The position numbers were made by a program, and so were the translations under genes. A stretch of 64,000 nucleotides of DNA from Candidatus Acididesulfobacter guangdongensis (GTDB lineage: Bacteria > SZUA-79 > Acidulodesulfobacterales > Acidulodesulfobacteraceae), in the NCBI GenBank assembly GCA_004195045.1, contig SGBC01000001.1, positions 434,001-498,000 of the forward strand, in the 5' to 3' direction. Numbering within the stretch: the first letter of the stretch is position 1; the number at the start of each line of letters is the position of its first letter. Positions 24,467 to 31,152 of the stretch are shown one piece after another. The notes under the pieces are model-generated. The model did not search any database and was not told where the DNA came from. It saw only the letters and a list, made by a program, of their open reading frames with translations.

Positions 24467-25084
24467 TTATAAATCCAGTCCTATATTAAAAGCTTTCAAA
24501 TTATCCTTAGCTTTTGAACCTTTTAAGAGAATATTTTCTATCACGTTTTTGGACACGGGTATATTTGTTTTTGCAAATAAAACCCCGAGGGAAATAACAT
24601 TGCAGGATATTATAGAACCAAAATTTTCTAAAGACAGCTTATTAAAATCGTAATAAAAAACATTGTCCGTTATGCCGTAAAGACTTTCTAAAATATCATC
24701 TAACTCAGGATATTTATTTTTCCCCATTCGCACGCTTATAGGAATATGCGGATTTGTATTAAAAATAATGACGGAATTTTTGTTGACATAAGAAGCAGCT
24801 CTCAACGTCTCTAACGGTTCCAATGAAATTAGAACATCGGCATCGCCTGAAGCTATCATAGGCGAGTGCATATTTTTTCGTGGATTTTGCAGTTCTGCAA
24901 TTGAGTCGTAAAAAATATATTTGACGAATGCTTCCACGTAACCTTCTCTTTGCGCTCCGCCTCTTCTTTCTGAACCTGATACGTCCTGCATAACAGAATC
25001 AAGAACGGCATTTTTTAGTATAGTGCCTGCAGTTATAATCCCTTGACCGCCAAGACCAGTAATAGCTATATTAAACTTTTTCAT
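24467..25084 (-). CDS. iorB: indolepyruvate ferredoxin oxidoreductase, beta subunit
   Basis: Gamma-type subunit of the 2-oxoacid:ferredoxin oxidoreductase family, pairing with IorA to convert aryl pyruvates to aryl-acetyl-CoA with reduction of ferredoxin. It has 205 residues. The signature ITGLGGQGIITAG (8-20) is followed by SGSERRGGAQREGYVEAFVK. The stop is at 24467. It lies 74 bases after iorA at the end of a six-gene run. The true substrate could be another 2-oxoacid. Confidence 0.93.
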   Translation of the reverse strand: MKKFNIAITGLGGQGIITAGTILKNAVLDSVMQDVSGSERRGGAQREGYVEAFVKYIFYDSIAELQNPRKNMHSPMIASGDADVLISLEPLETLRAASYVNKNSVIIFNTNPHIPISVRMGKNKYPELDDILESLYGITDNVFYYDFNKLSLENFGSIISCNVISLGVLFAKTNIPVSKNVIENILLKGSKAKDNLKAFNIGLDL

Positions 25085-25158
25085 TATTATAATATTTTAA
25101 TTTATTTTATATATTATGTATATTATATCTTATATCGCTATTTTTAGTTCGTTTTATT

Positions 25159-27177
25159 TTATTTATTATCAAGAAAACATAGCTGCGATTCAGGATTTAT
25201 TGACGGATGCAGATTGAATTCTACTTTCCTTATAGCGCTGTTAGGGCATACTTCGTAACACACGCCGCATTTAACGCATGAAACAGGGTCTATAAAATAA
25301 TATTCTTTACCATTATTAATACCGTTTTCTTTTGCCGACTGAATTGCAGGACACGCCAATTCAACAAAACATTCATTGCACTTAACGCAGCGTTCTTTTT
25401 GTAATTCATATATAATTTCAGAACTATTTTCCGGTTTAGATTTAATATTTTTTATTTTTTTTCTTCTTTCTTCCTGGAGAATACATTCACGCTTAGCAAT
25501 TATAACTTTGAGCCCTTTTTCCTTCAGCGCTTCTTTTATGATAACGCTGAATCTTTTTACGCTGTTAGGGTCAACGGTTTTAATATACGAAACGCCAAGC
25601 GATTTAAGCAAATCTTTTAAATTAACAGAATTAGGAATAGGGGTTCCGTCAATATCAGTTTTAGTTGAAGGGGTTTTCTGATGCCCCGTCATTGCAGTCC
25701 AGCTGTTATCAAGAATAATATATAAGATATTTGAATTGTTCTGAATTGCGTTCATAAGAACAGGTATTCCGGAATGATAAAAAGTTGAGTCCCCGACTAA
25801 CGCTATTATTTTTTTGCTCTTGTCTGCTATACTGATAGCCTGCCCTATGCTTAATCCTGAATTCATGCAGGTTAGCCAATCCATAGCATTATACGGCGGC
25901 AATAGTCCGAGTGTGTAGCATCCTATATCGCCTGCTATAACAACATCTCTGTCTTTAGAGCCGGTATTAGAATATCCGGATGCTTTTAAAATTGAATAGA
26001 TAGTGCCGCGATGAGGACATCCTACGCAAAAAGTTCCCATTCTCTGCGGGATTTTATCTGAAAGAATTTCCGACTTATTAACTGCTGCGGTAAAATACTC
26101 TGGGGCTGCCTTTCCTAAAAAACCGGTAACGCCCTTAATAACGTCGTCTATAGTCAGTTCTCCATAAGCTTTGAATACATTTTTGCCGTGGATTTTTCCA
26201 TGATAGCCTATTTCGAAAGCTATTTTTTTAATTTGAAATTCTAAAAAACCTTCTGCCTCTTCAACAATAACAACTTCATCTAAATTATCTAAAAACTTAC
26301 CTATAAGTTCTTCCGACAGAGGAAAAGTAATCCCTAATTTTAAAATCTTATAATAATCCGCATTAATAAAATTCAATGCCTCTATCAAATGGGAGTATAT
26401 AACGCCGGATGAAATAAAACCTATTCTGGAACTTTTCGCTGAACTAATCTGCGCATCTATAATCATATTTAATTCAGAATTATAGACATATTTTTTAAGG
26501 AGTTCGTTACGTTCAAGATATTTTTTATGATTCTTAACGGCAAGATTAAAAAGATTAAGATAATTTTCAGGATCTCTTTTAAAATTTCCGGATATTAAAT
26601 CTCTGTCCGAACAATCGCCAAAATGCAATATGCCTGCATTATGGCACAATCTTGAAGGAGCCATGAGTATAATTCCGAAAGAAAACTGTTCAGAAATATC
26701 GAAAGCTTTTTTTGTAAAATCTTTAGCTTCCTGTATATTTGAAGGCTCTATAATAGGCATGTACGTATGCAGACTATACCATCTGTCGTCCTGCTCATTA
26801 GAACTGCTGGGAGCTCCCGGGTCTGAACCTATAGCAAGAACAAGCCCTGCTTTAACCCCTGTATACGCCAGAAAATGCGCCGGTTCACTGGCGACGTTTA
26901 AACCGACATTCTTCATTGCGCATAAAGACCTGATACCCGACCATGAAGCGCCTATTGCTCCATGCAGGGAAATATGTTCATTCAAGCTGAATTCGGTATA
27001 AATATTTTTTATATTTTTTTTATTTTTGTCTAATGCAATAATAATTTCAGAAGCCGGAGTCCCAGGATACATTGATGCATAGCCGATTCCGGCTTCAAGC
27101 GCCCCTCTTGCAATTGCCTCATTACCAAGGATTATACCCCTATCGCCATATTTTCCGTCAACGAACAAATTTGCCAT
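25159..27177 (-). CDS. iorA: indolepyruvate ferredoxin oxidoreductase, alpha subunit
   Basis: 672 residues. The N-terminal pyruvate-synthase-like domain opens with LGNEAIARGALEAGIGYASMYPGTPASEI. The thiamine-diphosphate domain has GDIGCYTLGLLPP...ALVGDSTFYHSG and NSWTAMTGHQ (about residues 418-500). The C-terminal ferredoxin-like domain carries two iron-sulfur motifs, CVKCNECFVELACP and CVKCGVCYEVCP (about 592-650). It lies ten bases after the MetF-like gene and is followed by iorB. It probably acts in anaerobic breakdown of aromatic amino acids or in the reverse reductive carboxylation. Confidence 0.96.
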   Translation of the reverse strand: MANLFVDGKYGDRGIILGNEAIARGALEAGIGYASMYPGTPASEIIIALDKNKKNIKNIYTEFSLNEHISLHGAIGASWSGIRSLCAMKNVGLNVASEPAHFLAYTGVKAGLVLAIGSDPGAPSSSNEQDDRWYSLHTYMPIIEPSNIQEAKDFTKKAFDISEQFSFGIILMAPSRLCHNAGILHFGDCSDRDLISGNFKRDPENYLNLFNLAVKNHKKYLERNELLKKYVYNSELNMIIDAQISSAKSSRIGFISSGVIYSHLIEALNFINADYYKILKLGITFPLSEELIGKFLDNLDEVVIVEEAEGFLEFQIKKIAFEIGYHGKIHGKNVFKAYGELTIDDVIKGVTGFLGKAAPEYFTAAVNKSEILSDKIPQRMGTFCVGCPHRGTIYSILKASGYSNTGSKDRDVVIAGDIGCYTLGLLPPYNAMDWLTCMNSGLSIGQAISIADKSKKIIALVGDSTFYHSGIPVLMNAIQNNSNILYIILDNSWTAMTGHQKTPSTKTDIDGTPIPNSVNLKDLLKSLGVSYIKTVDPNSVKRFSVIIKEALKEKGLKVIIAKRECILQEERRKKIKNIKSKPENSSEIIYELQKERCVKCNECFVELACPAIQSAKENGINNGKEYYFIDPVSCVKCGVCYEVCPNSAIRKVEFNLHPSINPESQLCFLDNK

Positions 27178-27187
27178 ATATACTTTA

Positions 27188-27964
27188 TTACAACTTTTTT
27201 AATATGTTTATTTTCGGGCTTACAATTTTTATAATTAATCCGTCCGCTTTAAGATTCAAGGCGTTAGCGTAAGCTTCATCCAATGAATTAAAGGTTTTTC
27301 CTATTTCTAATTCATTAATATGTATAAAAACATTTTTATGTTCTTTTTTAATATATTCAATTGCACCGATATTATCCGTAAAAGAATTAATTATAAAATT
27401 ATCTGCGCCGACTGTCATAAGTTTTTTTATTTTTACCATATCTGCAGGTGTTGATGCGGCTATTTTAACGCCAAGATTAAAATTTTCGATATTGTATGCA
27501 GCGTCTTCAGCGTTAGCAACATTATTGTCTAACAAATCGTTATTTGAATTATTTTCAATTAAATGATTAATCGACCTAGATTTTTTAATAATAGAACTGA
27601 GCGCAACTACGTCTATATCATAAACGGGTTTAGCAGAATGAAATACCGTCTTCACTGGATGCAGTCCTTCAGATATTATAATATTTTTTAACTTCAGCTG
27701 ATTTAAAGTGATGAGGTCGGAAAATAGCGCGATCCTGTTTTTATCTCTCATATTGACTGAATACGTTATTACTGCATCAGGATTTTCATCAGATAAGAGT
27801 TTGCAGAGCAATATTGCGTTAAAACCGAAATTTTGTTCAATAATTATATTTTTAATATTAATAGTTCTATTTCCGCCAAGTCCACCTAATAATATTTTTA
27901 ATTCTTTTAAAAAATCGATGTAATTTTCACTCAAAGGGGATTCTATTTCAGGTATGATATTCAT
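27188..27964 (-). CDS. methylenetetrahydrofolate reductase-like protein (divergent MetF)
   Basis: 258 residues, somewhat shorter than standard MetF (about 290). The family is recognised from VITYSVNMRDKNRIALFSDLITLNQLKLKNIII (about residues 64-97), which matches the conserved folate/flavin-contacting region of MetF, and from the MetV-like gene beside it. The following motif, normally ALTGDPP-like, reads SEGLHP here, so the aspartate is not in its usual place. The middle (about 130-165) is Asn-rich and poorly conserved. It may be a MetV-dependent reductase, or a relative that has lost or changed activity. Confidence 0.7.
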   Translation of the reverse strand: MNIIPEIESPLSENYIDFLKELKILLGGLGGNRTINIKNIIIEQNFGFNAILLCKLLSDENPDAVITYSVNMRDKNRIALFSDLITLNQLKLKNIIISEGLHPVKTVFHSAKPVYDIDVVALSSIIKKSRSINHLIENNSNNDLLDNNVANAEDAAYNIENFNLGVKIAASTPADMVKIKKLMTVGADNFIINSFTDNIGAIEYIKKEHKNVFIHINELEIGKTFNSLDEAYANALNLKADGLIIKIVSPKINILKKL

Positions 27965-27975
27965 ATGGTAAATCC

Positions 27976-28611
27976 TTAAATATTTTTTTTAATAGTCTTT
28001 ATGCTGTGATCTCTTGGAGAAAAAATACGGACTATATTTTCTTCCTCTCCAAAATTTTTCATATTTGCATACGAGGTCATAAATATACAATTTGCTTCTT
28101 CGTCAACTTCGCATTTAATACCGTTATGCCCTTCGCATGGACCATTCAGCAATCCTTTGGGACAAAGCGTAATTGTACATACACCGCCTGTAAAATTTAA
28201 CCTGCATTCATCGCACCCGCGGCACAAAGGGCTATATTCGCCTATATGCTCAGTCTTGGCTATATATTTACTGTTTGTTCCTGCAATCACCTTTTTTTTG
28301 ATAAGCCCGCTTATAGTCTGAACACCGGTTCCGCATGAAAGCACAACAATAGCATCGGTATTTTCAAGATTATCCTCAACAAAACGCATATCTTCTTTCA
28401 GCACCCTCATATCGCACGGCTCATCAATAGAGATGGTAAATGTTATATTTTTACCCTCTTTTTTTAATGATTGCTCCATTTCTACGACCTGCGCGGAGCC
28501 GCCGGTCAAGCATATAGATGCGCACGATGCGCATCCTACAATACCTATATTTTGATATTTTTCCGCGGCATCTATTATTTCTTTAATATCTTTTCTTGTA
28601 GTCAGAAACAT
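27976..28611 (-). CDS. MetV-like zinc/iron-sulfur partner of methylene-THF reductase
   Basis: 211 residues of the methylenetetrahydrofolate reductase C-terminal-domain family (MetV of acetogens). Cysteine-rich motifs are GCASCASICLTGG (about 26-38), PLCRGCDECRL, and CPKGLLNGPCEGHNGIKCEV...NCIF, the last being the family signature. In acetogens MetV forms a complex with MetF and passes electrons to it. It lies 11 bases before the MetF-like gene, so the two are surely co-translated. Presence of both fits a ferredoxin-linked methyl branch, but no other Wood-Ljungdahl gene is in this window. Confidence 0.85.
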   Translation of the reverse strand: MFLTTRKDIKEIIDAAEKYQNIGIVGCASCASICLTGGSAQVVEMEQSLKKEGKNITFTISIDEPCDMRVLKEDMRFVEDNLENTDAIVVLSCGTGVQTISGLIKKKVIAGTNSKYIAKTEHIGEYSPLCRGCDECRLNFTGGVCTITLCPKGLLNGPCEGHNGIKCEVDEEANCIFMTSYANMKNFGEEENIVRIFSPRDHSIKTIKKNI

Positions 28612-28628
28612 ATTTTATTATTTATCGT

Positions 28629-29792
28629 TTAAGACGGCTGAGCGCCAAGTTTTACTTTAATAAATTTAATTTTATTATCTGTATGTATTTTTAGAACTAC
28701 AATCTGTCCAGGAATGAAAGAGCTAATCATTCTTTCAAGGCTTGAAAAGGAATCAACTTTTTTATTGTTTATTCTGGTTATAATATCTCCGCCCAAAACA
28801 TAAGCCATAGCCTTCATCTGTATTATCCTTTTCCCTGCCCTTATGCCGGCTTTATACGCAGGACTCCTTGGAAAAACTTTCTCAACTAAAAGACCTTTGC
28901 TTACATTTTTAATTCCGAAAAGCCTGCTAAAACTTTTTGTGACTTTAATGGCTTCTATCCCAAGCCATGGTTTTATTATTCGGCCGTATTTTACTAACTC
29001 GGGAATATTTCTTTCTGCAAGATTAATAGGTATCGCAAAACCGATATTTTGAGCTTCTCCTGCCAATTTTGCAGTATTAATACCGATAACGTGTCCTCTG
29101 TAGTTAACCAAAGGTCCGCCGGAATTGCCAAAATTAATAGCAGCATCCGTCTGTATTATATTTCCGTAAAATCTTGCGGTAGGAAAAACTAACGACCTTT
29201 TAAGTCCGCTTATTATACCGGTAGTGACGGTTTGATATAAATTGTAGGGGTTACCTATAGCCATAACCCTTTCACCAACTTTTAAATCGTTAGAGTTTCC
29301 TAAAACGACCGGCACTATTTTCCTGCCTTTAGGATTAATATGAATAATCGCTATATCAGATGAAGGGTCGGTACCGATTATATTTGCCTTTACATTTTTA
29401 TATTTTAAAAAACTGACGTCTATTTTGCTTGCATTTCCTATTACATGAAAATTAGTTAATATATCCCCGTTATTATTTATAAAAAACCCGGTGCCTATAT
29501 CTTCTTCAGGCATTATCGCGCCGTTTTTCAATCTGGCAAATCCCAGCACCTGAATGTGCACAACACTGGGCTGCAATTCATGAAACAGTTTTTCGACAAT
29601 TGAACTGCTTTTATTCGCTGCATTAAATGCGCTAACATTCGCGACTGCAAATGCAAATATTAAAGATACTATAGAAAAAACCGATACAATTGTTTTTATT
29701 TTAAGTTTAGATTTAATTTTATTGCCTAATATATTACCGTATCTGTTATTTTTACAAGCACCGTCTGCATTATGCCGCCTCTGAAAAAACAT
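28629..29792 (-). CDS. HtrA/DegP-type periplasmic serine protease with one PDZ domain
   Basis: 387 residues: a basic 32-residue start, a signal/anchor helix (about 33-55), then a trypsin-like domain with the full triad H116 (TNFHVIG), D146 (SSDIAII) and S224 (FGNSGGPLV), and a single C-terminal PDZ domain (about 275-385). The ATG at 29792 is preceded by GGAGGT and lies inside the last codons of the upstream gene, a 23-base overlap. It lies 17 bases before the MetV-like gene. A periplasmic quality-control protease embedded in a cytosolic redox operon is unusual. Confidence 0.93.
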   Translation of the reverse strand: MFFQRRHNADGACKNNRYGNILGNKIKSKLKIKTIVSVFSIVSLIFAFAVANVSAFNAANKSSSIVEKLFHELQPSVVHIQVLGFARLKNGAIMPEEDIGTGFFINNNGDILTNFHVIGNASKIDVSFLKYKNVKANIIGTDPSSDIAIIHINPKGRKIVPVVLGNSNDLKVGERVMAIGNPYNLYQTVTTGIISGLKRSLVFPTARFYGNIIQTDAAINFGNSGGPLVNYRGHVIGINTAKLAGEAQNIGFAIPINLAERNIPELVKYGRIIKPWLGIEAIKVTKSFSRLFGIKNVSKGLLVEKVFPRSPAYKAGIRAGKRIIQMKAMAYVLGGDIITRINNKKVDSFSSLERMISSFIPGQIVVLKIHTDNKIKFIKVKLGAQPS

Positions 29793-30999
29793 TACTACCT
29801 CCGCTCCATTGCTTCGCCTGATGAATAAAAGCTTCCAGTCTAAGCATTAAATTTGTACTTTCCTGCCCGTCAAACCATAGATTTATCCATGGAAAATTAT
29901 TTAAATCTTCTCTGAATTTTTTTGAAATAGCCTGTACTACCGATCCGGGCATACAATGAAAAGGGTGTATGGCAACAACACCTGAATACCCTCTCTTTGC
30001 AAAATCGATAGATTCGCCTACCGTTAAAATGGCCTCTCCGCCTATTGCTATATCAATATATTTTTTTGCATATTCCAGCACTTCTTTAATGCTTGATTCT
30101 TTTTGATTTCTGAGCAATTTGGAAAAAGGTTTAAACATATTTGATTCGTCTTTCTTTTGATAATAATTTACAAGGAAACTTAAAAAAATATCTTTAAATT
30201 TTTTGTTTCTGAAGGCCTTAGCGGTATATTCGTGGGTTGTGAAAGTTATCCATTTATATGTGGGAACAACGGAAACTTCCGCCCCAAGGGCTTCAATTTT
30301 TTCTATCGTAAAATTATTTGTAAATTTGTTGAGCCTTAAAAATATTTCTCCTACAATGCCTATTATTGGCCTTTTTTCGTCTTTAATCGTCACAGATTCA
30401 AATTTTTTAGCGCATACTTCCATTGAACTGTATATCTCTTTCCCTTTCTCTATTGCGTCGACGACAATATCTCTGCACTGCCCATAGACTTTTTCCGTCT
30501 CGCCTTTATTAATTTCATACGGCCGCACTCTATATAATGCTTTCTCTAAAGTATCTATTGCAAGACAGCCCTGCCAAGCGACCCTTCTGAATAAAGTCGC
30601 CTTGTCCCCGACGAAATCCGTGTATGATTTGCCTGCGCTCGGAACTAAAAACTCGACTTCATTATACCCCATGCTATCAAGCACAAGCTCATGCAATCGG
30701 TTATACTGCCCAAATTTGCAGGGACCGGGTGACGTCGGCATAAAAAAAGCCGATTTCTTAGGGTCAAAACCTGGTTTCTCAATAACTTTTATTATGTCGC
30801 CGGTCGTAACAAAACAAGGCATACACTCATTGCCGTTCGTATATTTTAAGCCGCAATCAATAGTTGAATTATCAGGTGCTTCCATAACTTCCGAATCTAC
30901 TCCGCATCTCCTGAAAGCGCCGCTTAATGCGTATGCCGCATCGGACATATATGGAATATAAACCTTCTTGTCAAATACCGAAGTATTAGTATGATGCAT
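29770..30999 (-). CDS. 2-hydroxyacyl-CoA dehydratase activase-related protein (COG3581/DUF2229-like)
   Basis: 409 residues from ATG at 30999; an AGAGG lies ten bases before it. A TTG three codons upstream is too close to that site. Conserved cysteine motifs are GNECMPCFVTTGD (about 53-65), the GPCKFGQYNR stretch (about 91-100), and AIHPFHCMPGSVVQ (about 340-353). They match the C-terminal half of large 'CoA-substrate-specific enzyme activase' proteins. The HSP70-like ATPase half found in those fusions is absent. The function of the family is not established; iron-sulfur binding by the cysteines is an inference. It is the first gene of the six-gene run. Confidence 0.75.
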   Translation of the reverse strand: MHHTNTSVFDKKVYIPYMSDAAYALSGAFRRCGVDSEVMEAPDNSTIDCGLKYTNGNECMPCFVTTGDIIKVIEKPGFDPKKSAFFMPTSPGPCKFGQYNRLHELVLDSMGYNEVEFLVPSAGKSYTDFVGDKATLFRRVAWQGCLAIDTLEKALYRVRPYEINKGETEKVYGQCRDIVVDAIEKGKEIYSSMEVCAKKFESVTIKDEKRPIIGIVGEIFLRLNKFTNNFTIEKIEALGAEVSVVPTYKWITFTTHEYTAKAFRNKKFKDIFLSFLVNYYQKKDESNMFKPFSKLLRNQKESSIKEVLEYAKKYIDIAIGGEAILTVGESIDFAKRGYSGVVAIHPFHCMPGSVVQAISKKFREDLNNFPWINLWFDGQESTNLMLRLEAFIHQAKQWSGGSNVFSEAA

Positions 31000-31066: not shown

Positions 31067-31081
31067 GACTATTAAATAGTC
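31067..31081. promoter_or_regulatory. perfect 7-1-7 palindrome, possible operator
   Basis: GACTATT-A-AATAGTC is a perfect inverted repeat with a one-base centre. It lies about 40 bases downstream of the predicted leftward -10 box and about 70 bases before the activase-related start codon, a position suited to a repressor. The cognate regulator is not identifiable in the window. Confidence 0.45.
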
Positions 31082-31123: not shown

Positions 31124-31152
31124 TATATACTATATCCTATTTATAAAGTCAA
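31124..31152 (-). promoter_or_regulatory. promoter of the activase-htrA-metVF-iorAB run
   Basis: TTGACT (31147-31152) and TATATA (31124-31129) are 17 bases apart on the minus strand, giving a leader of about 115 bases before the ATG at 30999. It is the only good match found upstream of this gene run. Confidence 0.5.

Follow-up and report, generated by a model that had tools for sequence, protein, structure and literature searches.

A conserved operon joining a MetVF paralogue without folate-site residues to an IOR-type oxidoreductase and part of a split activase-reductase in Candidatus Acididesulfobacter guangdongensis

What do paralogues of the methylene-THF reductase subunits MetV and MetF do in an operon that also encodes a 2-oxoacid:ferredoxin oxidoreductase, a protease and a piece of an activase? 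The question is raised by a 64,000-nucleotide stretch of contig SGBC01000001.1 (hereafter the window) within the 2.2 Mb genome of Candidatus Acididesulfobacter guangdongensis. The organism belongs to the acid-mine-drainage group Ca. Acidulodesulfobacterales, a small phylum for which CO2 fixation by the rTCA cycle has been published (PMC6776010). Between 24467 and 30999, six minus-strand genes follow one another in the order act-htrA-metV'-metF'-iorA-iorB (Table 1). The initial annotation had described a single operon of unusual make-up, in which ferredoxin reduced by IorAB drives the folate reductase and the activase-like protein donates electrons. The operon and its unusual composition are supported here, and the function assigned to it is revised. 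The reading favoured, tentatively and a little short of being probable, is that a 2-oxoacid oxidoreductase exchanges electrons through a repurposed MetVF flavin/iron-sulphur module, with a less certain link from this module to an ATP-driven reductase.

Table 1. Features of the operon and its upstream region in window coordinates; spacing is the distance in bases from the preceding gene of the operon, negative values being overlaps.
Feature	Position	Strand	Spacing	Description
act	29770-30999	-		409 aa; C-terminal part of a split ~1400-aa acyl-CoA-dehydratase-type activase/reductase
htrA	28629-29792	-	-23	membrane-anchored trypsin-like protease with PDZ domain
metV'	27976-28611	-	17	MetV paralogue
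metF'	27188-27964	-	11	short divergent MetF paralogue with MTHFR-like TIM barrel
iorA2 (iorA)	25159-27177	-	10	alpha subunit, indolepyruvate-type 2-oxoacid:ferredoxin oxidoreductase
iorB2 (iorB)	24467-25084	-	74	beta subunit with SGSERRGGAQREG signature
promoter	31124-31152	-		sigma-70-type, TTGACT-N17-TATATA; kept in 11 aligned upstream regions
palindrome	31067-31081			perfect palindrome GACTATTTAATAGTC

Conservation was assessed across the phylum, in those genomes that yielded metF' and from which the locus was fetched. The six-gene order is complete in the window and in 20 of 20 relatives with a contig spanning the locus (seven further loci are cut by contig ends), and the same locus is present in the congeneric Ca. 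Acididesulfobacter diazotrophicus, so that the scattering among close relatives which would speak against an operon was not seen. The start of htrA lies inside the end of act in the loci measured, a few of these overlaps hinging on the start codon chosen, and the remaining gaps are mostly short (one htrA-metV value, that of L033, was excluded). htrA is probably translationally coupled to act; no mechanistic role is ascribed to its product, and any such role would be conjectural. Because synteny across the phylum extends to the neighbouring dagK-like and UDG genes, conservation of the order is in part general, and gene order by itself is no strong proof of shared function. In one genome (G007) the act gene, at L032:11976-13202, contains one in-frame TAG, which may be a sequencing error, a pseudogene or recoding.

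The single promoter proposed for the operon was recovered as TTGACT-N17-TATAWW in 11 of 11 aligned upstream regions across the phylum, with TATAAT in some, while in a generic promoter scan such sites were not over-represented in this region. The palindrome between promoter and act, which had been taken for an operator, was rejected as such. It is missing from all 177 loci compared, was not present in the upstream alignment of the close relative L016, and has 19 near matches in the genome against 25 for a reversed control; it is probably a chance occurrence in AT-rich DNA.

The family identities given for HtrA, MetV, IorA and IorB hold. The protease embedded in the operon has Trypsin_2 and PDZ domains and His, Asp and Ser motifs in TNFHVIG, SDIAII and GNSGGP, and scores below the TIGR02037 subfamily cut-off. 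MetV' matches PF12225 (the MetV C-terminal domain) with 86.4 bits against a cut-off of 23 and retains every conserved cysteine (12 invariant residues in an alignment that includes canonical MetV). PF01855 (POR_N), PF02775 (TPP) and Fer4 were found in IorA2, and PF01558 (POR gamma) in IorB2. IorA2 shares about 33% identity with the canonical IorA that the genome encodes beside paaK, and scores 580 bits with TIGR03336, under the equivalog cut-off of 650.9; a clear homologue below equivalog level, it is therefore named an IOR-type 2-oxoacid oxidoreductase. The MetF-like assignment stands less firmly: PRK08645 matches MetF' weakly, at 28.6 bits, no Pfam family does so convincingly, and neither PF02219 nor TIGR00676, the MetF family profiles matched by the genome's canonical MetF, gave a match.

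An AF2 model of MetF' nevertheless gave a full 8-stranded barrel (pLDDT 80), with E. coli MTHFR as its top PDB match (TM 0.56); this is not independent evidence, because canonical MetF sequences were part of the alignment. In E. coli MetF, Asp120 and Gln183 lie at the folate site and Glu28 serves as the acid. The equivalents of these three residues are kept in 19 of 19 canonical MetF proteins, whereas among 12 MetF' homologues Asp120 and Gln183 are kept in none and Glu28 in five. The C-terminal region of MetF' is also shortened, and its identity across the phylum is the lowest among the five operon proteins compared. By alignment, MetF' is a shortened and rapidly evolving paralogue of MetF that lacks the predicted folate-binding residues.

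That MetV'F' is a true methylene-THF reductase driven by IorAB-reduced ferredoxin, as first annotated, agrees with the MetV and MetF homology, with the co-location of the genes and with the use of reduced ferredoxin by MetVF enzymes (PMC8760232). It is nonetheless very unlikely given the missing Asp120 and Gln183 and the variable Glu28. Furthermore, the genome has a canonical metF-porGDAB-folD-metV cluster elsewhere, and the published account of carbon fixation in this group, by the rTCA cycle, leaves the acetyl-CoA pathway unmentioned (PMC6776010). The canonical cluster (L004:11026-19155, own-genome contig C3) has pheA before metF and porGDAB-folD-metV-hisC after it, and glycine cleavage genes lie upstream of it; one-carbon and aromatic genes are thereby grouped in an unusual way.

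Loss of the folate residues is no proof that all reductase chemistry has gone from MetF'. The barrel motifs RDKNR, E/D-G-x-HP and AKPVYD are strongly retained and the position-118 equivalent is an invariant acid (E/D), as might be expected if MetV'F' were neofunctionalised rather than a pure relay and reduced a new small molecule (another pterin, an imine or a C1 carrier) with electrons from IorA2B2. The neighbourhood offers no candidate substrate and MetF' is the least conserved protein compared, which leaves a new-substrate reductase rather unlikely. The opposite course, in which MetF' and MetV' have degenerated into structural subunits that stabilise IorAB and play no redox part, would fit the shortening, the fast evolution and the lost folate residues of MetF', and the same genome does keep another degenerate IorAB-like pair beside actN; set against the conservation of all MetV' cysteines, it appears exceedingly improbable.

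A survey of 386 genomes from about 250 families, in which MetF' was told apart from canonical MetF, located it in two families only, that of the window and f24, which belongs to a second small phylum; in a pattern-limited scan of the contigs of 84,980 species, MetF' from outside the window's phylum, the f24 phylum included, was absent among the matches listed. metV'-metF'-iorA-iorB is present in 3 of 3 genomes examined from the second phylum and is followed there by a histidine kinase and a response regulator. The SGSERRGGAQREG signature of IorB2 is common to both phyla. In the trees, IorA2 of both phyla forms one clade (SH-aLRT 100) that excludes every other sampled IorA, the canonical paaK-side copy among them, and MetV' of both phyla likewise forms one clade, with long branches (SH-aLRT 98). 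Because the two clades match across the phyla, the four genes appear to travel together, and the link between MetVF and IorAB that had been proposed is supported by a core found in two phyla in different contexts.

This finding bears on the simplest alternative, that the genes share nothing except a promoter, with IorAB, MetV'F', HtrA and Act performing separate tasks in an order frozen by phylum-wide synteny. The syntenic flanking genes favour it, and neither act nor htrA turned up next to the core in the second-phylum loci, so that separate tasks could hold for HtrA and Act; for the operon as a whole it is unlikely, since the core is linked in both phyla and its IorA2 and MetV' clades match. 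For the same reason, namely the missing act and htrA beside the second-phylum core, the proposed link from the relay to Act is drawn from the host phylum.

The leading gene had been annotated as a free-standing C-terminal piece of an activase, and the homology of Act is indeed with the last ~400 residues of ~1400-aa activases found in many phyla; no full-length copy of these was found in its own genome. The missing part is encoded elsewhere in that genome as ActN (1003 aa), which has two ASKHA domains and DUF2229. ActN aligns to residues 7-987 of a 1405-aa homologue with 48% identity, and Act to residues 1011-1398 of the same protein with 46% identity. The ATPase assignment of ActN is clear (TIGR00241/PF01869, 329.9 bits against a cut-off of 125.4, in two domains), and the domains carry cysteine motifs in CAAGTGS and RCTVF. 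ActN is present in 17 of 21 phylum genomes searched; no copy was detected in four f1 genomes (G002, G009, G014 and G016), two of them rated 97-98% complete. Split forms with adjoining parts exist in other genomes. Judged from these alignments, Act and ActN are separately encoded parts of an activase-reductase that is split in the host phylum.

The neighbours of ActN are conserved in the loci fetched and include fur and a degenerate IorA/IorB-like pair (594 and 196 aa; L064:13824-16325, at about 15.8-18.3 kb of own-genome contig C2). This pair is convergent to fur and actN, has no recognisable TPP domain, and is fast-evolving and syntenic phylum-wide.

The nature of Act was approached by profile comparison. 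PF06050 (HGD-D) has no match in Act, and no PF06050 protein was found in its own genome; the Act profile aligned with the HGD-D profile in hhalign with 94% probability (E 1e-7; control 0.8%). The invariant cysteines of Act, Cys59, Cys94 and Cys349, have a spacing of 35/255, close to the 33/252 of Cys95, Cys128 and Cys380 at the [4Fe-4S]-OH2 catalytic cluster of BzdO (PMC11971306). A PDB sequence search with the Act profile gave no match, and the AF2 model of Act, built with seven close homologues, had a pLDDT of 38.5. By these comparisons Act is a remote HGD-D relative, not a member of the family. Its DUF2229 match, below threshold, helps to suggest that DUF2229 and Act would each be an HGD-D-like half, in the manner of the heterodimeric dehydratases. 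The role of electron donor once given to Act does not agree with these results, in which Act is the HGD-D-like part and not the ATPase donor. An analogy with the methyl-coenzyme M reductase activation complex was weighed and dropped, as homology was not demonstrated.

In the favoured reading, IorA2B2 would oxidatively decarboxylate a 2-oxoacid (or catalyse the reverse) by means of TPP and an iron-sulphur domain of its own. MetV'F' would be a MetVF that has lost methylene-THF reduction and serves as a dedicated module with a presumed flavin and [4Fe-4S] clusters, taking electrons from IorA2B2 or giving electrons to it, perhaps within a physical complex. In the host phylum, this module would be co-expressed with Act, the HGD-D-like part of the split ATP-driven reductase, and the Act/ActN pair would be a plausible consumer of low-potential electrons. 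The likely flow would run from the putative 2-oxoacid substrate through IorA2B2 to MetV'F' or ferredoxin, then to ActN (with ATP), to Act and to a putative low-potential acceptor. It is a doubtful proposal that all of these parts make up a new ATP-driven low-potential reductase system, leading from IorA2B2 through a folate-blind MetVF flavin module to a split activase-reductase with an operon-made HGD-D-like part.

Each part has a known relative. Published MetVF-type methylene-THF reductases (types II-IV: MetVF, RnfC2-MetVF and HdrCBA-MvhD-MetVF) couple to different electron partners, RnfC2 or HdrCBA-MvhD (PMC8760232). MetV'F' resembles them as a two-subunit arrangement of MetV (iron-sulphur) and MetF (TIM barrel) joined to an external partner, and differs in the shortened MetF' without Asp120, Gln183 and mostly Glu28, and in having a 2-oxoacid:ferredoxin oxidoreductase as that partner. 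IorA2B2 shares domain order, TPP motif and C-terminal 4Fe-4S domains with IorAB (TIGR03336/TIGR03334), whereas its separate clade, scores under the equivalog cut-offs and IorB2 signature set it apart. The two ASKHA ATPase domains of ActN and the three invariant cysteines of Act, as a remote HGD-D relative, recall the 2-hydroxyacyl-CoA dehydratase, class I benzoyl-CoA reductase and double-cubane protein systems with an ASKHA activase; unlike these, Act and ActN represent the ~1400-aa one-piece type split into two unlinked genes, in a genome without a detected PF06050 protein.

A partial literature search found no paper on an operon of IorAB with a methylene-THF reductase and, for DUF2229, a single paper whose title concerns an unrelated subject; no description of the function of the ~1400-aa one-piece activase-reductases was found in the literature searched. 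As far as could be found, neither the make-up of the operon nor the folate-site loss has been described. MetVF appears in that literature as a folate reductase only, whereas the MetV'F' clade has kept the iron-sulphur half, has lost the folate site, and is a fixed feature of two small phyla, where its genes always adjoin those of an IOR-type enzyme. It would add to the ways in which MetVF can be wired and offer a test of MetVF as a bare electron module. The split, in turn, indicates that the ~1400-aa activase-reductases consist of separable ATPase/DUF2229 and HGD-D-like parts, available here as small expressible pieces.

A parallel design to MetV'F' beside IorA2B2 was seen in two members of a neighbouring IorA clade, in which a gene for an FrhB-type flavin/iron-sulphur protein overlaps iorA (L214:2235-8743 and L211:6043-9130). 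In L214, the iorA relative is also near a gene for a prismane/CO-dehydrogenase family protein, and two small genes resembling a nucleotidyltransferase/HEPN pair lie between iorA and iorB.
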